Assembly: GCA_029242765.1 (NCBI GenBank)
Contig: JAQWTJ010000071.1
Coordinates: 1-44,123, forward strand
From: Flavobacteriales bacterium
GTDB taxonomy: Bacteria; Bacteroidota; Bacteroidia; Flavobacteriales_D; Sanyastnellaceae
DNA length: 44,123 nucleotides
Direction: 5' to 3'
Part shown: in pieces, positions 10,444-34,623 of the stretch
How positions within the stretch are numbered: the first letter of the stretch is position 1
Layout: every line of letters starts with the position of its first letter
Notes under the pieces: model-generated
Told to the model about the DNA's origin: nothing
The model's input: only the letters and a program-made list of their open reading frames with translations
Databases searched by the model: none
Position numbers and translations under genes: made by a program

Positions 10444-10682
10444 GCGTCCTTTGTTGAATTCAAGCGGCCCATACTACTGAAGCGAAACCACGCCCGCTCG
10501 TGAAAGTAATAAAGGAAGGTCTTGAGAACCATTTCAACGGCCGCTACACCGCCCGCCTTTTCCAAGGCATGGGGGTCCTCAGCAAAAAACACAAACGCAA
10601 TGCCGAAAGTTGTCGCCGAGGCAATCACACGCCAGGTGAGCGTTTTAGCCAAGTGGCGCTTTCGGGAAGTTCCGGATGTCAT
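10440..10682 (-). CDS. DUF2061 small membrane protein in the cys operon
   Basis: About 80 residues with two predicted membrane segments (around TLTWRVIASATTFGIAFVFF and VEMVLKTFLYYF) and the H-E-R-A-W end typical of DUF2061. The ATG at 10682 overlaps the cysC stop by 4 bp; a second ATG at 10688 is possible. Its own stop overlaps the cysD start by 4 bp. It is thus translationally locked between APS kinase and ATP sulfurylase. The biochemical role of DUF2061 is not known to me; this position suggests a job in sulfate uptake or activation at the inner membrane, which is inference. Confidence 0.85.
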   Translation of the reverse strand: MTSGTSRKRHLAKTLTWRVIASATTFGIAFVFFAEDPHALEKAGGVAAVEMVLKTFLYYFHERAWFRFSSMGRLNSTKDA

Positions 10683-11143
10683 GCCCATGAGTGTTCCAAT
10701 GCTACAAGAATATCAGCCAAACTCTCTTCAGGCGCCTTTCCCGTGGTGTCCATATCAATAAATTCTTCTAAAGGCGGTTCATAGTCCTTGCTATGAAACT
10801 GCTCGCGGCCGCGAAGCTCGCTGGTGTGCACGTAAATCTCACAAATTTGAACACGAGACTTGAACTCTTCTCGCAAGAACCGATAAGGCGCTACAATACA
10901 AACAACCACAAAGCAGCCTTGGCCCGCCAAGTACAATGCGATGTCTTGCGCCCGCCGGATATTCGCCTCGCGTCCCGCGCGGGTGTAGTCGGCATTTGCT
11001 GTCAAACCCCGCAAGTCGTCTCCGTCCACCATGAAGCAGCGCTCGCCTTGCGCCTCCCAATGCCCCATCAAGGCTTTGCCCAAGGTCGACTTTCCAGCCC
11101 CTGGCTGCCCGGTGATCCATACGATGTGGTGTGATGCTGCCAT
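10679..11143 (-). CDS. cysC: Adenylylsulfate kinase CysC
   Basis: A 154-residue P-loop kinase that phosphorylates APS to PAPS. Walker A is GQPGAGKST (12-20), replacing the common GLSGSGKST. VDGD (39-42) and the motif R-A-G-R-E-A-N-I-R-R lie in the APS-binding region. The open frame could start at 11161, but that start lies upstream of a TATTTTTG promoter-like box at 11158-11151. The ATG at 11143 gives MAASHHIVWITGQPG, so the protein lacks the longer N-terminal tail seen in many CysC proteins. It is the first gene of cysC-DUF2061-cysD-cysN. PAPS could serve sulfate reduction or sulfation; no PAPS reductase is in the window. Confidence 0.92.
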   Translation of the reverse strand: MAASHHIVWITGQPGAGKSTLGKALMGHWEAQGERCFMVDGDDLRGLTANADYTRAGREANIRRAQDIALYLAGQGCFVVVCIVAPYRFLREEFKSRVQICEIYVHTSELRGREQFHSKDYEPPLEEFIDMDTTGKAPEESLADILVALEHSWA

Positions 11144-11492: not shown

Positions 11493-13343
11493 TCAGCTGT
11501 CAAAGGCCTGCATGGCCACCATGGTTGCATAGGCGCCCTTCTTCGACACGAGCTGTTGGTGATCGCCCACTTCAATGATTCGGCCTTGTTCAAGAACGAC
11601 AATCCGATCCGCGCGACGAATCGTTGAAAGGCGGTGGTCGATGACCAGCACAGTGCGGTGCTCCATCACGCGCTCGATGGCAGCTTGCACGAGCTTTTCC
11701 CCCTCGGCATCCAAGGCGCTGGTGGCCTCGTCGAGAACGAGCACCGGCGGGTCGTGGTAAAGGGCGCGAGCGATGGAGAGCCGTTGGCGCTGGCCGCCAC
11801 TCAAACGACCGCCTCCGTCGCCAACCAGAGTGTGGTAGCCCTGAGGCAGCTGCTCAACGAAGTCGTGGGCGTTTGCGATGCGTGCGACCTCCTCAATGCG
11901 TGCAGGATCAGGCGACGGGTCGAACAGGGCGATGTTCTCGGCCACCGTGGCGTTGAACAGCAGTGAGTCCTGGGTGACTGTGCCCATCATCGAGCGCAAA
12001 TCTGAGGTGGCAAAGCACCGAGCATCGACGCCGTCCCATGTGATCACCCCTTCACTGGGGTCGTACAAGCGAGCCAACAAGCGGGCAGCTGTCGTCTTCC
12101 CGCTGCCCGATGCGCCCACCAAAGCCACCGTTTCGCCCTTGTTAATCTTCAGGTCGATCCCGTTCAAAGCGGCCTGCTCACCGCCCGGGTACGTCATCGC
12201 CACATCGCGAAAATGGATCTGCTCGTCAAATCGGGCCGTCGTCGGTTCAGACGGTTCCACAACGGTTGATTTCGCCTGCATCACCTCTTCCAAGCGCTCG
12301 AGCGACGCGGCGCCTTTTTGAATCTTGAATATTGCGTCGCTCAGAGATTTTGCTGGAGGGATAATCTGAGAAAAGACCACGAGATAGCCGATGAACAATT
12401 CACCTTCTAGGCCCTCCCCTGCCAATACCAGCTTTCCACCCACAAAAAGCAGCACAGCAATGATGCCCAAGGACACAAACTCACTGACAGGCGAGGATAA
12501 GTACTCGCGCTTGTACAGCTTGCGCATGAGCTGGAAATACCCTTCATTTTCAGAGGCGAATCGACCTCGAAAGCGTTCCTCTGCGCTGAATGATTTAACG
12601 ATGGGCATGCCCGTAAGCGTTTCCTCAATCCTGGAAATGAGTTCGCCAAGGCGCACCTTACCGCGGCCCGCAGCATTCTTCAAGGAAGCCGCGATGCGGC
12701 TGATAAGCAAGCCTGAGAGGGGCATAAACACCAATGCAAAGAGCGTGAGCTCCCAAGAGATTAACAGCAGCGTGGCGAGGGAAAGCACGATCATGATAGG
12801 CGCCTTAAAAAGCACTTCAAGGGTGCCGATTACGCTGAATTCAACCTCCATCAAGTCGTTGGTCATGCGCGAAATGAGATCGCCTTTTCGGGCTTCCGTA
12901 AAATAACCCAGCGGCAGGATGAGCATGCAATTGAACACCTGTGCCCGCAGGTCACGCGCGACCCCCGTGCGAATGGTGGCCAGTGAATAATAGGCGAGGT
13001 AGGTGACCAGGTTTTTGAGAAAGGCCAGCACAACGATGCCTATGCAAAGGCTGAGCAAGGCGCTCAAAGCGCCTTCCTCAGCGATAAATCCGTCGAGGGC
13101 CGTGCTGACTTGGGCAAAGACTGCAGACGCCGCTCCATTGGAGGCGCCGCCTGTCGAAGCAGCGGCATTGGAGGCCGTCGCAGTAGCGGCTTCACCGTGA
13201 CGGAACAAAATGCGCAAAAAAGGCACAATTGCTAAGAAGGTGAACAAGGACAAGAAGGCATTCAGAACATTGAACAGCACGTTGGCCGCTAAATTCCAGC
13301 GGTAATTGAGCACCAGGCCGAAAAGATCACTAAAGCGCTTCAC
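11493..13343 (-). CDS. MsbA-like ABC exporter (fused membrane and ATPase domains)
   Basis: A 616-residue half-transporter: six-helix type 1 exporter membrane domain (about 1-340) followed by a nucleotide-binding domain. Walker A GASGSGKT (410-417), signature LSGGQ (514-518), Walker B VLVLDE (534-539) and switch His570 are intact, so it should hydrolyse ATP as a homodimer. Its overall form matches lipid A/lipid flippases (MsbA) and multidrug exporters, which sequence alone does not separate. An odd Ala/Thr/Gly/Ser-rich insert occupies about residues 51-73, in the first periplasmic loop. Its ATG overlaps the purB stop by 4 bp, so the two are co-transcribed and probably translationally coupled. 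Confidence 0.88.
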   Translation of the reverse strand: MKRFSDLFGLVLNYRWNLAANVLFNVLNAFLSLFTFLAIVPFLRILFRHGEAATATASNAAASTGGASNGAASAVFAQVSTALDGFIAEEGALSALLSLCIGIVVLAFLKNLVTYLAYYSLATIRTGVARDLRAQVFNCMLILPLGYFTEARKGDLISRMTNDLMEVEFSVIGTLEVLFKAPIMIVLSLATLLLISWELTLFALVFMPLSGLLISRIAASLKNAAGRGKVRLGELISRIEETLTGMPIVKSFSAEERFRGRFASENEGYFQLMRKLYKREYLSSPVSEFVSLGIIAVLLFVGGKLVLAGEGLEGELFIGYLVVFSQIIPPAKSLSDAIFKIQKGAASLERLEEVMQAKSTVVEPSEPTTARFDEQIHFRDVAMTYPGGEQAALNGIDLKINKGETVALVGASGSGKTTAARLLARLYDPSEGVITWDGVDARCFATSDLRSMMGTVTQDSLLFNATVAENIALFDPSPDPARIEEVARIANAHDFVEQLPQGYHTLVGDGGGRLSGGQRQRLSIARALYHDPPVLVLDEATSALDAEGEKLVQAAIERVMEHRTVLVIDHRLSTIRRADRIVVLEQGRIIEVGDHQQLVSKKGAYATMVAMQAFDS

Positions 13344-14692
13344 TCGGCGGAGTATCCGATGTAGTTGTGTGGCGTTATCGCCTGCAATTCAGCCCGCACA
13401 GGCTCGCTGACGTCCAACCCTGCAATGAAGGCCGCGATGGATTCCTCGTTGATTCCTCCCTGCCCACGCGTCAAGGCCTTAAGCGCCTCGTAAGGCTTTG
13501 GGAAGGCTTCGCGCCGCAGTATCGTTTGGATTGCTTCAGCCACCACCGCCCAATGACGGTCGAGATCAGCTGCAATCCTGTCGCTGTTAAGCGTCAATTT
13601 CGAGAGGCCTTTACGCGTCGAACTGATGGCAATAAGTCCATGAGCCATAGGCATTCCAATATTCCGAAGCACGGTCGAATCGGTCAGGTCGCGTTGGAGG
13701 CGGCTGATCGGCAATTTGTCCGCCAGATGGGCCAATAACGCCCCGGCCACACCCAAATTGCCCTCCGAATTCTCAAAATCAATGGGGTTCACTTTGTGCG
13801 GCATAGCAGACGAGCCCACTTCACCCTCGACAACTTTCTGGCCGAAGTATTCCATAGAGATGTACGTCCAGATGTCGCGGTTGAGGTCAATCAAGATATT
13901 AAACGTCCGGCGCAAGGCGTCGCACCAAGCGGCCAAGTGGTCGTAGTGCTCAATTTGCGTGGTGGGATACGAACGGTGCAGGCCGAGCTCCTCACACACC
14001 AAGCGGTCGGCAAAGGCCGGCCAATCCACGTCGGGATAAGCCACGCGATGTGCATTGAACGCGCCGGTTGCGCCGCCAAACTTGGCAGCGTACGGCACCT
14101 CATCAAAGACGGCGAAGGCCTGGTCGAGGCGCTCGACAAACACGGCCAGCTCCTTGCCTAGGGTGACTGGACTGGCGGGTTGACCATGGGTGCGAGCCAA
14201 CATGGGGATATCACGCCAATTCTGAGCGAGGTCGTCGAGGTCGTCGCGCAAAGCGCTCAAGGCAGGCCGCAACACGTCAACTGTGGCCTCCATAAGCGAA
14301 AGAGGCACCGCCGTATTGTTTATGTCCTGCGAGGTGAGGCCGAAATGGACAAATTCCAAATAGTCCCCCATACCCAGCGCTGTAAGGCGATCTTTCACAA
14401 AGTACTCCACCGCTTTCACGTCGTGGTTCATCGTGCGTTCTGTGGCCTTGACCTCCAGGGCGTCTTCCATCGAAAACGTCTCATAAATCTTGCGCAAATC
14501 TGAGATTTGCTCGGTGCTGAGCGAGGGCAATTGGGATAAACCTTCTTTGCACAATGCGATGAAGTATTCGACTTCAATGCGCACTCGGTAACAGATGAGT
14601 CCTGACTCGGAGAAGTAATCCGCAAGAGGAGCAGTGTGGAGATGGTAACGGCCGTCCACAGGAGAGACGGCAAGCAATTGGGCGTGTGGCAT
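13340..14692 (-). CDS. purB: Adenylosuccinate lyase PurB
   Basis: A 450-residue fumarase/aspartase-superfamily enzyme that releases fumarate in two steps of purine synthesis (from SAICAR and from adenylosuccinate). The family signature GSSAMPHKVNP lies at about 293-303, with the catalytic serine loop, and H169 sits in ARTHGQPAS. The N-terminus LLAVSPVDGRY is the usual PurB start. The open frame runs 81 codons further upstream, across the promoter and into the divergent MBL gene. The ATG at 14692 is therefore chosen, 21 nt downstream of a TACCTTTG box. The protein resembles the longer E. coli-type PurB rather than the short Gram-positive type. Confidence 0.95.
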   Translation of the reverse strand: MPHAQLLAVSPVDGRYHLHTAPLADYFSESGLICYRVRIEVEYFIALCKEGLSQLPSLSTEQISDLRKIYETFSMEDALEVKATERTMNHDVKAVEYFVKDRLTALGMGDYLEFVHFGLTSQDINNTAVPLSLMEATVDVLRPALSALRDDLDDLAQNWRDIPMLARTHGQPASPVTLGKELAVFVERLDQAFAVFDEVPYAAKFGGATGAFNAHRVAYPDVDWPAFADRLVCEELGLHRSYPTTQIEHYDHLAAWCDALRRTFNILIDLNRDIWTYISMEYFGQKVVEGEVGSSAMPHKVNPIDFENSEGNLGVAGALLAHLADKLPISRLQRDLTDSTVLRNIGMPMAHGLIAISSTRKGLSKLTLNSDRIAADLDRHWAVVAEAIQTILRREAFPKPYEALKALTRGQGGINEESIAAFIAGLDVSEPVRAELQAITPHNYIGYSAE

Positions 14693-14710
14693 TTTGCGCG
14701 TGAATAGCGA

Positions 14711-14740
14711 TTGCAAAGGTACGGCTTCGGGGTATCTTTG
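14711..14740 (+). promoter_or_regulatory. Promoter of the MBL hydrolase gene, likely leaderless
   Basis: TTG at 14711-14713, 19 bases, then TATCTTTG at 14733-14740: a complete Bacteroidota-type promoter with ideal spacing. Only four bases separate the -7 box from the ATG at 14745, so the expected transcription start falls at or next to the A of the start codon. The -7 box of the divergent purB promoter is inside this spacer. Confidence 0.65.
14714..14721 (-). promoter_or_regulatory. -7 promoter box of purB
   Basis: On the minus strand this reads TACCTTTG, a full TAnnTTTG match, 21 nt before the purB ATG at 14692. It lies 11 bp from the opposing TATCTTTG box of the MBL gene, so the two polymerase footprints must overlap. 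No TTG was found at the usual upstream distance. Confidence 0.55.
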
Positions 14741-14744
14741 GGCC

Positions 14745-15632
14745 ATGCGAATTGAGACCATTGTACACGGCACCTTGCGCCTTGATGGCGGGGCCATGTT
14801 CGGCGTAGTGCCCCGCCCCTTATGGTCACGCGAGCGGCCCACAGACGAGCGAAACCGCTGCACTTGGTCCTTGCGGTCGCTGCTTATTGAGAACGGCAAC
14901 CGGTTGATGCTCGTCGACGCGGGGATGGGCGACAAGCAGAGCGAGAAGTTCTTTTCGCATTACGCGCCAGAATTCAATGATTTGGACGCGTCGCTGGCGG
15001 CGCTGGGCTACGGCCGAGACGACATCACCGACGTGTTCCTGACGCATCTGCACTTCGACCATTGCGGGGGCGCAATCAAACGCGGCGGCGCAAACGGCGA
15101 TTTGCTCGTTCCCGCCTTTGAACGCGCCACATTCTGGAGTACGCAGCGGCATTGGGATTGGGCGGTAGACCCCAACCCGCGGGAGAAAGCGTCGTTTTTG
15201 CAGGAGAATATTCGCCCCTTGGAGGAATCAGGCCAATTGAAATTTGTGGAGCGTAGTGTGGACTCAGGTGGACGGCCAAGCGATCGATCTTGCGGGGCCA
15301 TCGAGGGTTTCCCTGAGATGGACATCCTATTTGTCGACGGCCACACCGAAAGTCAGATGCTCCCTCTTCTAGATTTTGGCGGCCGTAAACTGCTGTACAT
15401 GGCGGACTTGCTGCCGTCCACCACACATATCCCCCTGCCTTGGGTGATGGGCTACGACACGCGTCCGCTGCTAACCATCGATGAGAAAGCGCGCGTGTTG
15501 CGCGAGGCGGCTGAAGGCGGCTACACGATGATTTTCGAGCACGACCACTTGCACGAGGCGGCGCAGGTGAAAATGACCGAGCGCGGAGTGCGGCTTGATT
15601 CGGCGGGGGAACGCCGCGATTTCGGCTGGTAA
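14745..15632 (+). CDS. Metallo-beta-lactamase-fold hydrolase
   Basis: A 295-residue MBL-fold protein with the metal-binding motif HLHFDHCGG (H101, H103, D105, H106), a later DGHTESQM histidine, YMADLLPS (an Asp ligand) and FEHDH. These are the ligands of a two-metal hydrolase. There is no signal peptide, so it should be cytoplasmic. Its layout, with the conserved DGHTxGQ-like segment, resembles lactonase/'MBL fold metallo-hydrolase' families, and the substrate is unknown. The frame is open 17 codons upstream but that would put the start inside the promoter, so the ATG at 14745 is preferred. It is divergent from purB and converges on pyrD with a 21-bp gap. Confidence 0.85.
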   Translation: MRIETIVHGTLRLDGGAMFGVVPRPLWSRERPTDERNRCTWSLRSLLIENGNRLMLVDAGMGDKQSEKFFSHYAPEFNDLDASLAALGYGRDDITDVFLTHLHFDHCGGAIKRGGANGDLLVPAFERATFWSTQRHWDWAVDPNPREKASFLQENIRPLEESGQLKFVERSVDSGGRPSDRSCGAIEGFPEMDILFVDGHTESQMLPLLDFGGRKLLYMADLLPSTTHIPLPWVMGYDTRPLLTIDEKARVLREAAEGGYTMIFEHDHLHEAAQVKMTERGVRLDSAGERRDFGW

Positions 15633-15653: not shown

Positions 15654-16712
15654 TCAATCGCGCAGCGCACTGGCGCAACACCGAGCAATGGATGGGCCGG
15701 TGTATATCATGCCCGAATACACTTGAATGAGCTGGGCGCCGGCCTCACGCTTTTCAAGCGCACCGGGGCCGTCCTCGACGCCGCCCACCCCGATGATAGG
15801 GAAATCCGCCCTGGCGCGCAGGTAACGCACAACTTCAGTAGATCGGGCGCGAACGGGCGCACCGGACAAGCCACCGGCGCCCATTGCCTCTATCTCTGGC
15901 CCCGGGGTTGCAAGCCCCGTACGCGCGATGGTAGTGTTGGTGGCAACCACCCCAGCAATACCCGTTTCTTCAACAATGGCCACAATGTCATCGAGCTGGG
16001 GGTCGGTGAGGTCCGGGGCAATTTTCAAAAAGATTGGCCGCGCTACGGCCTCCGACGAACCGACCAAGGCCTTGTTCAGTTGAGCATTGCGACCGGCAAG
16101 AGCTGATAGCAAGGCGGTGAGCGGAGCGCGCTCTTGCAACTCGCGCAAGCCCGGGGTGTTCGGTGAGCTGACGTTGACCGCGAAGTAATCAACGTGGGGA
16201 TGGAGTGCCTCGAGGCAACGCATATAGTCCCCCGTCGCATCAGCGTTTGGCGTGTCCTTGTTGCGGCCGATGTTGCCCCCCACAAGCAGGCCTTTCGGGC
16301 GGCTTTTTAAGCGTTCCACCAAGGCATCCAAGCCGCCGTTGTTAAAGCCCATGCGGTTGATTACGGCGCGGTCTCGCTTGACGCGAAACAAACGAGGGGC
16401 CGGGTTGCCCGGCTGAGGGCGCGGTGTAATTGTACCGACTTCTACATAAGCGAAGCCAAGAGCTTTCAAGGCGTGCAGCCAGCGTCCGTCCTTATCAAAT
16501 CCAGCCGCTAAACCGATGGCGTGGCGAAAACGGAGCCCCGCCACCTCAATAGGGCGGTCCTCCACCGCGAATGACCGGCGGAGAAAACCGCTCAACAAAG
16601 GGATGGTCAATCCAATCCTCAAGCATCGCATTGTAGCATAATGCGCCCGCTCAGGCGCAAGCGTAAAGGCCAACGGCCGCAACACCGCGGTGTAGAAATT
16701 GAGTCGTGCCAT
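15654..16712 (-). CDS. pyrD: Dihydroorotate dehydrogenase (quinone), class 2
   Basis: A 352-residue flavoenzyme oxidising dihydroorotate to orotate in pyrimidine synthesis, passing electrons to quinone. The N-terminal ~45 residues (helical, with Pro-Leu and Ala-Pro-Glu-Arg-Ala-His) are the membrane-associating extension of class 2 enzymes. FMN-site motifs: GLAAGFDKDGR (67-77), INRMGFNN (118-125), and the NVSSPNTPGLR motif (about 180-190) with the serine base typical of class 2. VGGVEDG near the C-terminus binds FMN phosphate. Start ATG 16712 sits 31 nt downstream of a TAATTTTG box. Confidence 0.95.
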   Translation of the reverse strand: MARLNFYTAVLRPLAFTLAPERAHYATMRCLRIGLTIPLLSGFLRRSFAVEDRPIEVAGLRFRHAIGLAAGFDKDGRWLHALKALGFAYVEVGTITPRPQPGNPAPRLFRVKRDRAVINRMGFNNGGLDALVERLKSRPKGLLVGGNIGRNKDTPNADATGDYMRCLEALHPHVDYFAVNVSSPNTPGLRELQERAPLTALLSALAGRNAQLNKALVGSSEAVARPIFLKIAPDLTDPQLDDIVAIVEETGIAGVVATNTTIARTGLATPGPEIEAMGAGGLSGAPVRARSTEVVRYLRARADFPIIGVGGVEDGPGALEKREAGAQLIQVYSGMIYTGPSIARCCASALRD

Positions 16713-16743: not shown

Positions 16744-16751
16744 CAAAATTA
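16744..16751 (-). promoter_or_regulatory. -7 promoter box of pyrD
   Basis: Reads TAATTTTG on the minus strand, a full TAnnTTTG match. The leader to the pyrD ATG would be about 27 nt. No clear -33 element. Confidence 0.5.
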
Positions 16752-17981: not shown

Positions 17982-17989
17982 TAACTTCG
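17982..17989 (+). promoter_or_regulatory. -7-like box before the arylsulfotransferase-like gene
   Basis: TAACTTCG differs from TAnnTTTG at one position and ends five bases before the ATG at 17995, the same geometry as the leaderless MBL promoter. The identical 8-mer sits five bases before the GTG start of rsmE. Confidence 0.35.
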
Positions 17990-17994
17990 CAGGT

Positions 17995-19650
17995 ATGATC
18001 AAAGCTCGACTCCTCGCATTTTCAGTCGGAATATTTCTGGCCAGCCCGCAGATGCACGGCCAACAAACCATGGGGCTGTTCAGCAACTCGTCAAATGCAT
18101 ATGACGGCTACACCTTGCACGGAGCAATCGGCTCGACCGAGACGTACTTAATTGACAATTGCGGGCGTGTGGTGAACAGCTGGTCGAGTGATTACACTGC
18201 AGGGACCTCGAGCTACTTGATGGAAAACGGGGACCTGGTGCGCGCCGGACGTGTGGCCAGTGAGGTCTTTGGCAGCGGCGGCCTCGGCGGCCGAATCGAG
18301 CGGTTTTCGTGGGAGGGCGAGCTGCTCTGGGGGATGAACTTCGCCAACGACACCATCCACCAACACCACGATTTCGCCGTTATGCCGGGCGGAAATATTC
18401 TGGTTCTGGCCTGGGCGATGCGCTCTGCAGAGCAAGCGGCGGCCGTTGGCGACGTGGACGGCGAAATGCTCTGGCCCGAGACGGTTCTCGAAATTGAGCC
18501 GAGTGGAACGGACAGTGGATCGGTGGTTTGGAGTTGGACGGCGTGGGAACACCTCGTGCAAAATGTGGACAACACCCTGCCGAACTTTGGAGAACCAGCC
18601 AATTTCCCGGAGCGATTTGACGTGAATTACATCAATCCAGCAGGTCAAAACGCGGGTGGCGACTTTCAACACTTCAACTCCATCGACTACAACGCTGAAC
18701 TGGACCAAATCATGCTCAGCTCAAAGCGATGGAGTGAAATCTACATCATCGATCACAGCACGACAATGGAAGAGTCTGCTGGAAGTACTGGTGGGGCCGC
18801 CGGGCGAGGCGGCGACTTGCTGTACCGCTGGGGCAACCCCGCGACCTACGACCGCGGAACGGCGGCAGACAAGGTGCTCTTCGGCCAACACCATCCGCAT
18901 TGGATTGCATCGAGCTTGCCCATATCCGGCTCCAACCCCACCGCCTCCGTGCTCCTTTTTAACAACGGCAACAACCGCCCCGAGGGCGATTTAAGCTCGG
19001 TGGACGAATTGACTTTACCGCTTCTTGAAGACGGGACCTACGCCATTGAAGAAGGCGGAACATATGGGCCTGAAGCCTTGGACTGGCGTTATCCAGAGAA
19101 CTTGAGTGACGCTTTTTTCGGCCAACGCATTTCGGGGGCTCAACGCTTGCCCGGCGGGACGACTTTGATTTGTTTGGGGCCCGATGGACGGCTGTTTGAA
19201 GTCACCGACGAGGGCGAATTGGTTTGGGAGTACATCACCGCCCATGGGAACGAAGGGCCTTTGGTTCAGGGTGGATATCCCATAGGAAATTCAACTTTCC
19301 GCGCCACGCGATACGCAGCTGATTACGCGGGACTTTCGGGTCTGGACTTGACGCCGGGCGAGCCGGTGGAGCTGGACCCATTGCCTTCGGATTGCGAGAT
19401 TTTTGCCGGGCTTACTGCACGTATAGAGCCGGCTGCATTTGCAGTGCACCCTAACCCTTTCAACGACCGCCTCACTTTGATGAGCAACAAGCCTTCACGA
19501 CCTGAAGTGTATGAGCTGAGTGGACGTTTGGTCTGGCGCGCTGAACGGGCTGCGAAACAGCATGAAATTGATCTTGGAAACTTGCCTCCCGGGGCCTACC
19601 TCGTCCGCGCATCTGATGCTAACTTGGCCCAACTCCTAATCAAACATTGA
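17995..19650 (+). CDS. Arylsulfotransferase-like T9SS-secreted protein
   Basis: A 551-residue protein with a signal peptide (about 1-22) and a repeated beta-strand body consistent with a propeller. Recurrent segments resemble the PAPS-independent arylsulfate sulfotransferase (ASST) family: YLIDNCGRVVNSW, YLMENGDLVRAGR, a His-rich HQHHDFAVMPGGN (122-134), FQHFNSIDYN (225-234), and GQHHPHWI (297-304). In ASST, histidines in comparable segments take part in catalysis; which of H124/H125/H226/H299/H300/H302 would do so cannot be set here. The C-terminal ~80 residues are a T9SS sorting domain (VHPNPFNDRLTL, VYELSGRLVW, LAQLLIKH). The frame is open upstream of the ATG, but the chosen start gives a clean signal peptide. 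Activity is uncertain. Confidence 0.75.
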   Translation: MIKARLLAFSVGIFLASPQMHGQQTMGLFSNSSNAYDGYTLHGAIGSTETYLIDNCGRVVNSWSSDYTAGTSSYLMENGDLVRAGRVASEVFGSGGLGGRIERFSWEGELLWGMNFANDTIHQHHDFAVMPGGNILVLAWAMRSAEQAAAVGDVDGEMLWPETVLEIEPSGTDSGSVVWSWTAWEHLVQNVDNTLPNFGEPANFPERFDVNYINPAGQNAGGDFQHFNSIDYNAELDQIMLSSKRWSEIYIIDHSTTMEESAGSTGGAAGRGGDLLYRWGNPATYDRGTAADKVLFGQHHPHWIASSLPISGSNPTASVLLFNNGNNRPEGDLSSVDELTLPLLEDGTYAIEEGGTYGPEALDWRYPENLSDAFFGQRISGAQRLPGGTTLICLGPDGRLFEVTDEGELVWEYITAHGNEGPLVQGGYPIGNSTFRATRYAADYAGLSGLDLTPGEPVELDPLPSDCEIFAGLTARIEPAAFAVHPNPFNDRLTLMSNKPSRPEVYELSGRLVWRAERAAKQHEIDLGNLPPGAYLVRASDANLAQLLIKH

Positions 19651-21547: not shown

Positions 21548-21857
21548 TTGCCTCTGGCTTGCCCAAAGGGATGAATTGACCCACCACTGCTAAAAAGGTG
21601 TGGCGCTTGCCCAGCACATCAATCTGATAGATTGACGCCACAAACAGGTCGTGACGCGTGGCGAGTTCGCCGCCCACAGCGCCGGCAATCTTGCCCAAGC
21701 CTTTGGCTATCACATCGTCCGAGCCTGGATTCAATTCCTGCGCAACATAATTTGAGAGGTAATGCGAAAACTGCTGCGGTCCGGGATTGCTGAAATGCAG
21801 CCCGGCCAGCATGAGCAGAAAAAGCGATAAAACACGGATGATTCGCATGGTTTTCAA
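21540..21857 (-). CDS. DUF4359-like exported small protein
   Basis: A 105-residue protein with an N-terminal signal or anchor helix (MRIIRVLSLFLLMLAGLHFSN), then NPGPQQFSHYL and a C-terminal RHDLFVASIYQID…FLAVVGQFIPL, which matches the DUF4359 layout. Function is unknown. Its ATG overlaps the rsmE stop by 4 bp (ATGA), so it is coupled to rsmE; a second ATG nine bases downstream is possible. Confidence 0.7.
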   Translation of the reverse strand: MKTMRIIRVLSLFLLMLAGLHFSNPGPQQFSHYLSNYVAQELNPGSDDVIAKGLGKIAGAVGGELATRHDLFVASIYQIDVLGKRHTFLAVVGQFIPLGKPEAIK

Positions 21858-22597
21858 AGCCTTCTTGTATTGCGTGATTGCTGTTTTAGCTGAAAGGCTT
21901 GGACGGCGTACAAGGCGGCCGTTTCCGTACGCAAGCGCCGGTCACCAAAGGTGACGGGAAGCCAGCCTTTGGCAGTGGCAGATTCAATTTCCGATGCCGC
22001 AAAATCGCCCTCTGGTCCGATACACACTACCGCGTCCTCACCCGGGTTCAAAGCGTCCCAAAACGGGGTGCGGATCGACGAAGAGAGTCCTTCTTCCACC
22101 GGGCAATGCGCAATGGCGTGCAGCCCCTTAAAGGCGCTATAACGCTCTAAAAACTCTTTGAAATCCAGTGCAGGTTCAAGCTCAGGAAGCCAGCTGTCCT
22201 GGCATTGCTTCATGGCTTCAATCAGCACGCGATTCCAGCGTTCTGGCTTTTCAACGCGCCGCTCGCTTCTGCGCGTCCAAATGGGCTGAACCCGCGTCAC
22301 CCCAATCTCGCAGGCCTTTTCCAAAAACCACTCGAGGCGGTCCGTCTTTTTCGTCGGTGCGATGGCGAGCGTCAATTGTGGTGTTATCGCCGGATCGGAC
22401 CCCGAGCGGACCACCTCAGCAGAGCACTGCGATGGGCTCACAACAATCAGGGTCGCCTGAAACCGCCCCCCACGACCGTCAACAAGTTCCACCACATCAC
22501 CCACCCGAGCGCGCAAAACCTTCGCCAAATGACGCGACTCATCACGAGGCAAGTCAAACTCACCTTCCAAGACATCAGAAACGAAAAATCTACGCAC
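21854..22597 (-). CDS. rsmE: 16S rRNA m3U1498 methyltransferase RsmE
   Basis: A 247-residue SPOUT-family methyltransferase that methylates U1498 of 16S rRNA. N-terminal PUA-like domain (MRRFFVSDVLEGEFDLPRDESRHL…VLRAR-VGD) and C-terminal trefoil knot with VCIGPEGDFAASE and FGDRRLRTETAA, which bind S-adenosylmethionine. The usual GPEGG is GPEGD here. The start is GTG; no in-frame ATG lies near the homologous N-terminus. A TAACTTCG box ends five bases before it, as for the arylsulfotransferase-like gene. It lies 65 bp downstream of pckA on the same strand. Confidence 0.94.
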   Translation of the reverse strand: MRRFFVSDVLEGEFDLPRDESRHLAKVLRARVGDVVELVDGRGGRFQATLIVVSPSQCSAEVVRSGSDPAITPQLTLAIAPTKKTDRLEWFLEKACEIGVTRVQPIWTRRSERRVEKPERWNRVLIEAMKQCQDSWLPELEPALDFKEFLERYSAFKGLHAIAHCPVEEGLSSSIRTPFWDALNPGEDAVVCIGPEGDFAASEIESATAKGWLPVTFGDRRLRTETAALYAVQAFQLKQQSRNTRRL

Positions 22598-32906: not shown

Positions 32907-33805
32907 TTCAATGGCATTTCGGCCGGACGTTTGTGCTTCCATCGTTTATGTGACCAAAGCCAGTATTGAGGGTCGGCCTTGATTTGTTTGGCCACACGCT
33001 CGTTTGCCGCCTCCAGCAAGGCGCCCGATGCCCAGTCCCGCGGCGCGTCCGTAATCATCTCGTAGTGCACCTCCCAAAACCCTCGGGGCTTGCCTGGTGC
33101 GGGTCGAATCCCGAAGAAGCACACCGGCATATTGTACTTGTGGGCGTAGCCCTCCAACCCATAATGCAAGGGCGTTTCCTGTCCGAGCCACAGCGTCCAC
33201 CACGCCTTGCGCGGATCGGTTGGGCGTTGGTCAACAGCAAGGATAATCGCACCTCGCGGGCGCCCCTCACTTTCAGACAACTGCACTGTGCGTTCCATCC
33301 AAGCTTTTGTGTCACGGGTCCGCACCATCTCAAGGCCCAACCGGCGGCGCGTTCTCAAGAGCAACGATTCGTAAAACGGATCGGACACCTTCTTGTACAC
33401 GGCCATCACCGGGAAAGGCAGCGCACCTCCGAAGGTCACCACGCGTTCCCAATTGCCATAATGCCCGCAGGCAAGGATCACCCCTTGCGGAAGGTCGGCA
33501 TAAGGCGCCAAGACCTCAGGATTCACATGCCGCGTCCGTTCCATCAGTTCGCTTTTGGAAGCCCGGAAATTTCGAATCGACTCGACCATAACGCTCGTCA
33601 AATGGCGAAAGAACTTTCGGGCCTCCCCTCGCCTCCATTGCGGCGACTCGCCAGGAAACACAAGCTCCAAGTTATCAAGCACCACCTTCTTCCGATAGCC
33701 CACGACCCAAACCACGGCCGCCAACGCATCGCCCAACACATACAATACGCGGTAAGGCAAGCATCCCAGCGGCACAACAATCAAATAGTACAGCAAACGG
33801 CTCAT
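32903..33805 (-). CDS. LpxL/HtrB-family lipid acyltransferase
   Basis: A 300-residue membrane-anchored acyltransferase of the lysophospholipid/lipid A late acyltransferase family, which adds a secondary acyl chain to lipid A or a similar lipid. N-terminal hydrophobic anchor (about 5-35), the catalytic HX4E motif GHYGNWE (H115, E120), ILAVDQRPT (about 190-198) and WLWSHKRWKHKRP at the C-terminus as in LpxL-type enzymes. The acceptor cannot be deduced. ATG 33805 overlaps the preceding MBL gene stop by 4 bp, and the stop overlaps rarA by 4 bp. Confidence 0.88.
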   Translation of the reverse strand: MSRLLYYLIVVPLGCLPYRVLYVLGDALAAVVWVVGYRKKVVLDNLELVFPGESPQWRRGEARKFFRHLTSVMVESIRNFRASKSELMERTRHVNPEVLAPYADLPQGVILACGHYGNWERVVTFGGALPFPVMAVYKKVSDPFYESLLLRTRRRLGLEMVRTRDTKAWMERTVQLSESEGRPRGAIILAVDQRPTDPRKAWWTLWLGQETPLHYGLEGYAHKYNMPVCFFGIRPAPGKPRGFWEVHYEMITDAPRDWASGALLEAANERVAKQIKADPQYWLWSHKRWKHKRPAEMPLK

Positions 33806-34623
33806 AAGGCGCTTGGTTGGGATGACTGCAGGCCATCGCTGTGAATGACCAGTCCATCGTATCCGAATTGCACCCCATCGGGCAACTCCTGCGACACCTC
33901 TGCGTGCAACCCCATCAAATGGCTGATATGTGTGAGATAGGCGCGGGACGGTTTCAGCTCCTCAATGACACTAAGCGCCTGTTCAAGATTGAAATGGCTG
34001 ATATGCGCCTTCTTTCGCAGGGCATTGATGACAAGCACATCCATTCCTTGCAACCGCTCCCAGGCCTCAGGTGTCAAATGGCTCGCATCAGTGATATACG
34101 CCACGTCCTCAATGCGAAAGCCAACCACCGGCAAGTTCAAGTGGCGCACAGGGATAGGCGTGACCTCCACGCCGGCCACCGAAAATGGCGCGTCCGTGAT
34201 GGTGTGCATCTCGAGCTGCGGGATGCCCGGGTACCCCTCGCCGCTGAAAGCGTAGTGAAATTCACGATTTAGCGCTTCTTGGACACGCTCCGAAGCATAC
34301 AAGTCAATGGCACTCTTCTGCTTAAAGTTGAAGGCGCGCACATCGTCCAGGCCGGCCACGTGGTCTTTATGCTCATGAGTGAACAGGACGGCGTCAACAT
34401 TTGAGACCTTTTCGCGCAACATCTGCTGGCGAAAATCTGGGCCAGTGTCCACGATGAATCGACGGACATCACTTGAATTGGATTCACAAGAAACCTCATA
34501 CATCGCACTGGTTCTCAGCCGCTTGTCCATGGCGTCGGCCGAGGCGCAAACCGTGCAATCACAAGTGATTACAGGCACACCCTGAGAGGTTCCCGTTCCT
34601 AGAAGTGTCAGTGTCACCGCCAT
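33802..34623 (-). CDS. PhnP-like MBL-fold phosphodiesterase
   Basis: A 273-residue MBL-fold protein. Start LTLLGTGTSQGVPVI followed by CDCTVC (C21, C23, C26), a structural-zinc motif as in PhnP, then the catalytic metal motif THEHKDHVAG (H83, H85, D87, H88), YITDASHL and HISHLMG. PhnP hydrolyses cyclic ribose phosphates, and relatives act on other cyclic phosphates or RNA ends; the real substrate is unknown. The open frame extends 44 codons upstream across a TACCTTTG box, so ATG 34623 is chosen. It heads a tightly overlapped chain with the acyltransferase and rarA, despite no obvious common function. Confidence 0.87.
   Translation of the reverse strand: MAVTLTLLGTGTSQGVPVITCDCTVCASADAMDKRLRTSAMYEVSCESNSSDVRRFIVDTGPDFRQQMLREKVSNVDAVLFTHEHKDHVAGLDDVRAFNFKQKSAIDLYASERVQEALNREFHYAFSGEGYPGIPQLEMHTITDAPFSVAGVEVTPIPVRHLNLPVVGFRIEDVAYITDASHLTPEAWERLQGMDVLVINALRKKAHISHFNLEQALSVIEELKPSRAYLTHISHLMGLHAEVSQELPDGVQFGYDGLVIHSDGLQSSQPSAL

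Follow-up and report, generated by a model that had tools for sequence, protein, structure and literature searches.

Predicted leaderless and near-leaderless mRNAs at genes with a -7 box next to the start codon in an uncultured Flavobacteriales bacterium

Introduction

The closest described systems are the Bacteroidota with mapped transcripts, Flavobacterium johnsoniae, Flavobacterium psychrophilum and Bacteroides thetaiotaomicron, which share a -7 promoter box (TAnnTTTG/TAHHTTTG), no Shine-Dalgarno (SD) signal and some leaders shorter than 10 nt. In F. johnsoniae transcription starts 4-5 nt downstream of the -7 box, the -33 element is reported to be weak, and among genes with a probable promoter 87% of leaders are longer than 10 nt (PMC6847099). 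Leaderless transcripts make up 5.5% in F. psychrophilum (PMC9723704), while in B. thetaiotaomicron ~3.7% of 5' UTRs are shorter than 10 nt, the examples being transposases, sensor kinases and transporters (PMC7366714).

Sequence surveys have touched on the same question. Zheng et al. 2011 (PMC3160421) predicted leaderless genes in one of 37 Bacteroidetes/Chlorobi genomes (2.4%), using the E. coli Pribnow matrix as the reference; the authors note that signals of other types could escape their search. In the Actinobacteria and Deinococcus-Thermus, leaderless genes form a large share and carry a Pribnow-like TANNNT box at a fixed short distance (PMC3160421). For FCB genomes, GeneMarkS-2 distinguishes a class whose starts are closely preceded by a motif other than SD, called a non-canonical AT-rich ribosome binding site (RBS; PMC9581028). 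A related statement in PMC5397173 draws on Zheng et al. 2011, whose table does not support it, on a Bacteroides RBS paper and on PMC4535381, which concerns Bacteroidetes genes without an RBS rather than mapped leaderless mRNAs. The parts of the open-licence papers considered here describe no leaderless-rich Bacteroidota clade, measured or predicted.

Here we analyse a 44,123-nt contig of an uncultured Flavobacteriales bacterium (the window) together with the genome that holds it. The host shares the -7 box, the lack of an SD signal and, by prediction, the occurrence of short leaders with the mapped Bacteroidota, but differs from them in that such leaders are predicted for ~20-25% of non-overlapping genes, the commonest spacing between box and start codon being exactly 4 nt, in a TTCG variant of the box and in the many housekeeping genes among those identified. 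It resembles the Actinobacteria and Deinococcus-Thermus in box placement and predicted gene share, whereas its box is that of the Bacteroidota; and, as in the AT-rich FCB class, a motif other than SD directly precedes starts, except that here the motif behaves as a promoter.

Materials and Methods

The window is positions 1 to 44,123 of contig JAQWTJ010000071.1 (assembly GCA_029242765.1); its family is labelled f1 and its genus g1. The host genome comprises 2.22 Mb in 110 contigs and is 97% complete. It is the one genome analysed in depth, and gene calls come from our own motif-blind caller, which was applied to the window and 60 further stretches, 892 kb in all or 40% of the genome, and returned 683 genes. 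Sufficient upstream sequence was available for 627 of them, 512 non-overlapping and 115 "overlapping", the latter class being defined by overlap with, or a distance of at most 5 nt from, a same-strand gene. Throughout, d is the number of nucleotides between the end of the box and the start codon, and a strict box is TAHHTTYG unless TAHHTTTG is stated.

Results

Near boxes in the window

A preliminary description of the window had listed five -7 boxes that end a few nucleotides before start codons. All five were confirmed letter by letter, at d = 4, 6, 7, 5 and 5. The boxes and their genes are as follows.

14733-14740, + strand: -7 box TATCTTTG, d = 4 to the MBL ATG at 14745; predicted transcript start 14745 (A of ATG)
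14745-15632, + strand: metallo-beta-lactamase-fold hydrolase (MBL; PF00753), predicted leaderless
34637-34630, - strand: -7 box TACCTTTG, d = 6 to the PhnP-like ATG at 34623
33802-34623, - strand: PhnP-like MBL-fold hydrolase (PF12706), predicted leader 1-2 nt
11158-11151, - strand: -7 box TATTTTTG, d = 7 to the cysC ATG at 11143
10679-11143, - strand: APS kinase (cysC; PF01583 from residue 6), predicted leader 2-3 nt
17982-17989, + strand: -7 box variant TAACTTCG, d = 5 to the ATG at 17995
17995-19650, + strand: arylsulfotransferase-like (ASST) protein with a Por sorting tail (PF05935, PF18962), start less certain
22610-22603, - strand: -7 box variant TAACTTCG, d = 5 to the rsmE GTG at 22597
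21854-22597, - strand: 16S rRNA methyltransferase RsmE (PF04452, PF20260), GTG start, predicted leader 0-1 nt

The motif-blind caller chose the same start for three of the five genes (MBL, PhnP and rsmE) and differed on two, placing cysC at 11068 rather than 11143 and the ASST gene at 18052 rather than 17995. The start at 11143 rests on the APS-kinase domain, whose match in the longer form begins with residue 6, and that at 17995 on a signal-peptide-like N-terminus recognised by eye. Of the 80 MBL relatives kept, 78 align from residue 1 onward, the closest named relative being an uncultured Flavobacteriales MAG (L042; 86% identity over residues 43-291), and MBL has a TTG at gap 19 from the box.

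The near boxes had been credited to five of about ten first-in-operon genes. The numerator stands; the denominator does not, as the caller gives 19 such genes among the 30 window genes with enough upstream sequence, so that the near-box share is about one quarter and close to the genome-wide estimate below. Across the whole window the motif is not over-represented (10 occurrences of TANNTTTG versus 13.1 expected). What is unusual is its placement relative to starts: 0.06 strict boxes are expected in 20 starts x 4 positions, and the resulting probability of at least five, ~8e-9, is only indicative because the starts were curated by eye with the boxes already known.

Boxes at greater distances provide leadered contrasts in the same window.

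14714-14721, - strand: -7 box TACCTTTG of the divergent purB, d = 21 to its likely start at 14692
13340-14692, - strand: adenylosuccinate lyase (purB; PF00206, PF08328), predicted leadered
16744-16751, - strand: -7 box TAATTTTG, 31 nt before the pyrD start at 16712 (PF01180)

The purB start was picked by eye from the N-terminus; the caller had 14761. Between purB and MBL (14692-14745) the divergent promoters are interlocked, each -7 box lying ~25 bp from the predicted transcript start of the other, and four other genomes (G060, G081, G111 and G121) likewise have CAAAGGTA words facing the MBL box.

Spacing between box and start codon across the genome

A genome-wide histogram of the distance from box to start had been named beforehand as a test of the leaderless proposal. 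Counting TAHHTTTG-N(d)-ATG without gene calling gave 5, 0, 3, 7, 23, 14, 11, 11, 6, 6, 4, 5 and 5 occurrences for d = 0 to 12 (100 of 104 places listed; some boxes are counted twice where two ATGs follow). A chance-like distribution was not seen: counts are low at d 0-2, peak at d = 4 and return to background by ~9. The peak is at the spacing where a transcript start five positions beyond the last G of the box would coincide with the A of ATG. A C directly precedes the ATG in 19 of the 23 cases at d = 4. The edge is not fully sharp, since a shoulder at d = 3 holds 7 places in this histogram and 8 matches to the box matrix described below, and at these boxes a transcript start at the A would require a 3-nt spacing. 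Together with a statement in the part of PMC5397173 considered here, this shoulder slightly lowers our confidence in both the leaderless and the family-wide readings.

Within the gene-called sample, strict boxes before the 512 non-overlapping genes number 1 at d 0-3, 31 at d 4-7 and 4 at d 8-12; over 300 dinucleotide shuffles the mean at d 4-7 was 0.67 and the maximum 4. A free-position motif search on 362 first-in-operon genes recovered TA..TT.GC, most often at d 4-8 and with G avoided at positions 3-4 (0.11, 0.01), as in the TAHHTTTG consensus. Both T and C are used at position 7 of the box, and it is thus better written with TTYG than with TTTG. Among within-operon genes the free search yielded a diffuse TTTGAA motif only. 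Strict boxes at d = 6 are scarce in the gene-called sample (1, versus 10 at d = 5 and 9 at d = 7), perhaps because of small numbers; this dip is predicted by no model considered and is absent from the genome-wide TTTG histogram (11 at d = 6, 11 at d = 7).

Share of genes with a near box

To avoid circularity, a box matrix was trained only on boxes ending 13-55 nt upstream of starts and then applied near starts. It found 1, 1, 1, 8, 24, 18, 12, 13 and 5 matches at d 0-8, with 1.9 expected per position. By mixture fit, 24.5% (bootstrap 19-30) of the 512 non-overlapping genes have a box at d 4-7, as do 22% (15-25) of first-in-operon genes alone. The matrix behind the fitted share is degenerate and has a floor of ~5%, taken from the 115 overlapping genes (4.9%, 0-11), which brings the net near-box share to ~1/5. 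It may be slightly underestimated, because 8 of the 53 distant boxes (13-60 nt) are followed within 12 nt by an in-frame alternative ATG or GTG, six of these at 4-7 nt. Roughly one fifth of separately transcribed genes therefore seem to have a box close enough for transcription to start at the start codon.

Of the 30 near-box proteins whose stop lay within the available sequence, 23 were scanned against Pfam: all three from the window and 20 of 27 from elsewhere in the genome. Matches include SSB, cyclophilin, SucC-like, CinA, RF3, LpxD-like, GMP synthase, class I (E/Q) tRNA synthetase, PurE, MazG and a lipoamide-dehydrogenase-like protein, where names beyond the Pfam labels are those we take to apply; 4 of the 20 scanned proteins outside the window matched no Pfam family at 1e-5. 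Many of the identified near-box genes are, by prediction, housekeeping genes. The Pfam domains begin at residues 2-5 in the SSB, SucC-like, CinA, GuaA, PurE and Lpd-like proteins, indicating that the start codons assigned to them do not lie upstream of the true ones.

Conservation of the spacing in relatives

Loci of f1 with a usable start numbered 26 for MBL (own included), 21 for PhnP and 23 for RsmE (own loci not in these two sets). In each relative the in-frame start codon closest to residue 1 of the query was used, with preference given to ATG, which leaves a few shifted (for example PhnP of G081 by 7 codons). Left out of the count were L167 (a second G149 fragment), the weak matches L233-L239, L245 (no N-terminus) and L263 (a C-terminal fragment).

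Allowing at most one mismatch to TAHHTTYG, a box lies at d 4-7 in 15/26 MBL, 14/21 PhnP and 15/23 RsmE loci, 44 of the 70 in total, and at d 0-3 in two. All 15 near boxes of MBL are at exactly d = 4, and all seven members of the genus have one. The five PhnP loci of the genus all carry a box at d 4-6; near boxes of RsmE are at d 4-5 in 15/23, including all six genus members, where each reads TTTCTTTG. The remaining 26 loci have no box at d 4-7, some of them having a box farther upstream, and in other f1 members that of MBL is found, for example, 14, 17, 19 or 20 nt before the start. Promoters of one gene thus appear to shift between leaderless and leadered positions across relatives.

The MBL box of six g1 members (L143-L147, L168) has TACCTTTC instead of TTTG at unchanged spacing, which may represent a tolerated or lineage-specific last base. 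At rsmE, the GTG of the window is matched by one relative, 22 of the 23 having ATG under the nearest-start rule.

Spread across genomes

The spread of near boxes was followed in 57 genomes by counting TAHHTTYG-N-ATG at d 4-5 versus d 1-2. The host gave 83/7 and five other members of its genus 87/3, 77/10, 81/5, 75/6 and 75/11; values ranged from 105/56 to 202/8 (the latter G047) in 18 further f1 genomes and from 106/94 to 187/69 in 16 genomes from other families of the order. Six genomes from genera that we take to belong to the Flavobacteriaceae gave 189/196 (Flavobacterium sp. ACAM 123), 226/203 (Aquimarina muelleri), 94/89 (Christiangramia sabulilitoris), 128/102 (Leeuwenhoekiella blandensis), 140/108 (Winogradskyella jejuensis) and 90/33 (Robiginitalea sediminis), and Niabella aurantiaca gave 220/117. 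Counts for MAGs were 60/9 (L042), 197/88 (L043), 176/64 (L044), 96/11 (L049), 58/6 (L051), 80/10 (L054), 142/75 (L056), 147/58 (L061), 136/68 (L064) and 80/12 (L080); those of L061 are identical to those of G029, and the two are probably one genome. The d 1-2 control replaced a reversed-pattern control (80 versus 15 for the host, in an order sample of 199 genomes) because the latter is weak in AT-rich genomes.

The ratio of the two counts exaggerates contrasts with GC, as the background is higher in AT-rich genomes, and the difference is the fairer measure. By difference the host scores 76; values are 49-194 in f1, 12-137 in the other families of the order and -7 to 57 in the six Flavobacteriaceae, which shows that the near-box excess extends beyond f1. 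In a set of 118 genomes across the phylum the host has the highest ratio, many of other classes are near 1, and seven (own included) combine a ratio of at least 3 with a difference of at least 30 (sums by eye). Six genomes from other families of the phylum (G285, G314, G318, G326, G328 and G248) have ratios of ~3 to 9 and could possibly represent further leaderless-rich lineages.

Gene-based fits, each on 46-127 genes, gave 28% (16-39) for G047, 26% (7-35) for G078, 20% (6-29) for G081 and 12% (6-20) for G019; Leeuwenhoekiella came to 11% (4-18) by the same fit, which shows that the method does not separate lineages sharply. Pooled Flavobacteriaceae loci (350 first-in-operon genes) had 6 strict boxes at d 4-7 and 72 at 13-60, only a rough contrast because neighbourhoods of one gene are not independent.

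A promoter or a ribosome signal

An element at this position could instead be a translation-initiation signal of leadered mRNAs, AT-rich or Kozak-like, that merely resembles a -7 box. Such a reading has precedents in the AT-rich RBSs described for FCB genomes (PMC9581028) and in the Kozak-like sequences used in F. johnsoniae (PMC6847099), and positional effects upstream of starts exist here too, with C preferred at -2/-1 in both gene classes. However, a ribosome signal should also mark operon-internal genes, whereas matrix matches at d 4-7 precede 2/115 overlapping versus 63/512 other genes (p=2.6e-4), a count that coding constraint could lower; strict boxes alone give a weak contrast (2/115 versus 31/512, p=0.065). 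For a promoter this scarcity is expected, since transcription of overlapping genes comes from the preceding gene. Moreover, the matrix that fits the near element was learned far from starts, where no ribosome site is possible, and genes with a near element have no other strict box upstream. We consider a ribosome signal improbable.

SD-like words are not enriched before starts (35/627, versus 51/627 in a control window). Start codons of the 31 near-box genes (28 ATG, 2 GTG, 1 TTG) show no clear difference from those of all 512 (429, 51 and 32). A -33 TTG at gap 17-21 accompanies 3/31 near and 9/53 distant boxes, with no clear peak and no enrichment in either class, which agrees with the weak element of F. 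johnsoniae; its scarcity at near boxes speaks against the promoter reading, though distant boxes have few as well. No 16S rRNA was found in the host genome or in six genus members; it is present in 3 of 20 family genomes searched, and as all three keep the CCTCC tail, loss of the anti-SD as a cause is ruled out in the family genomes with 16S.

The near box might also be a secondary promoter, the main transcript coming from a promoter of another sigma factor farther upstream; alternative sigma motifs account for 7% of high-confidence transcription start sites (TSSs) in F. psychrophilum (PMC9723704). A second strict box of the sigma-A type at 13-140 nt upstream is nevertheless found at 0/31 near-box genes, versus 70/481 others (p=0.014), as though a near box took the place of a distant one. 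In addition, at 9 of the 31 near-box genes a same-strand gene ends no more than 30 nt upstream, so that space for another promoter is small, and the spacing at MBL is exactly 4 in all 15 relatives with a near box. This arrangement is in our judgement quite unlikely. That the boxes lie near ATGs by accident, with the true starts downstream, could draw on the absence of a motif excess across the window and on the caller's disagreement over two of five starts, but is scarcely credible in view of the shuffles, the d 1-2 control, the alignments from residue 1 and the Pfam domains from residues 2-5.

Discussion

Taken together, the spacing peak, the spacing kept in other genera, the scarcity of near boxes at overlapping genes and the lack of a second strict box support, as a prediction, the original proposal of leaderless or near-leaderless mRNAs. 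We put the probability at about 0.87 that true -7 boxes give rise to such mRNAs at ~1/5 of separately transcribed genes. In this model the TAHHTTYG boxes would be genuine -7 elements of the housekeeping sigma factor, and RNA polymerase would start 4-5 nt past the box, as in F. johnsoniae, so that the first nucleotide of the transcript is the start-codon A or lies at most ~3 nt before it and the mRNA is leaderless or nearly so; we infer the start nucleotide from the TSS data of relatives. The 5'-terminal AUG would then presumably be recognised by the ribosome with initiator tRNA, without SD contact. This mode would serve about one fifth of separately transcribed genes, with many housekeeping genes among those identified, in the genus and, to varying degree, in the family. 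Short or absent leaders are reported at 3.7-13% in three other Bacteroidota, so that the host would seem to show a known mode in enriched form.

A broader proposal is that in a whole Flavobacteriales family and in scattered lineages of the phylum the -7 box is the usual upstream element of ~1/4 of transcription units, that selection acts with single-nucleotide precision on starts at the A of AUG in housekeeping genes, and that part of the "non-canonical AT-rich RBS" of Bacteroidota is a promoter box. We offer this tentatively, and in its full extent it is doubtful.

Bacteroidota rely little on SD pairing, and leaderless mRNAs are a small minority in the three mapped species. In a clade with leaderless mRNAs at ~1/5 of separate genes, placed with single-nucleotide precision, the choice of start by Bacteroidota ribosomes would become directly testable, and start codons would be called more accurately in many uncultured genomes. 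The same clade would offer a view of how the promoter of a gene shifts, from one relative to the next, between a leaderless and a leadered placement. At rsmE, in four relatives (L248, L250, L253 and L254), a terminator-like stem with a T-rich run, recognised by eye, abuts or overlaps the start region or the near box, giving the impression of a terminator merged with a leaderless promoter.
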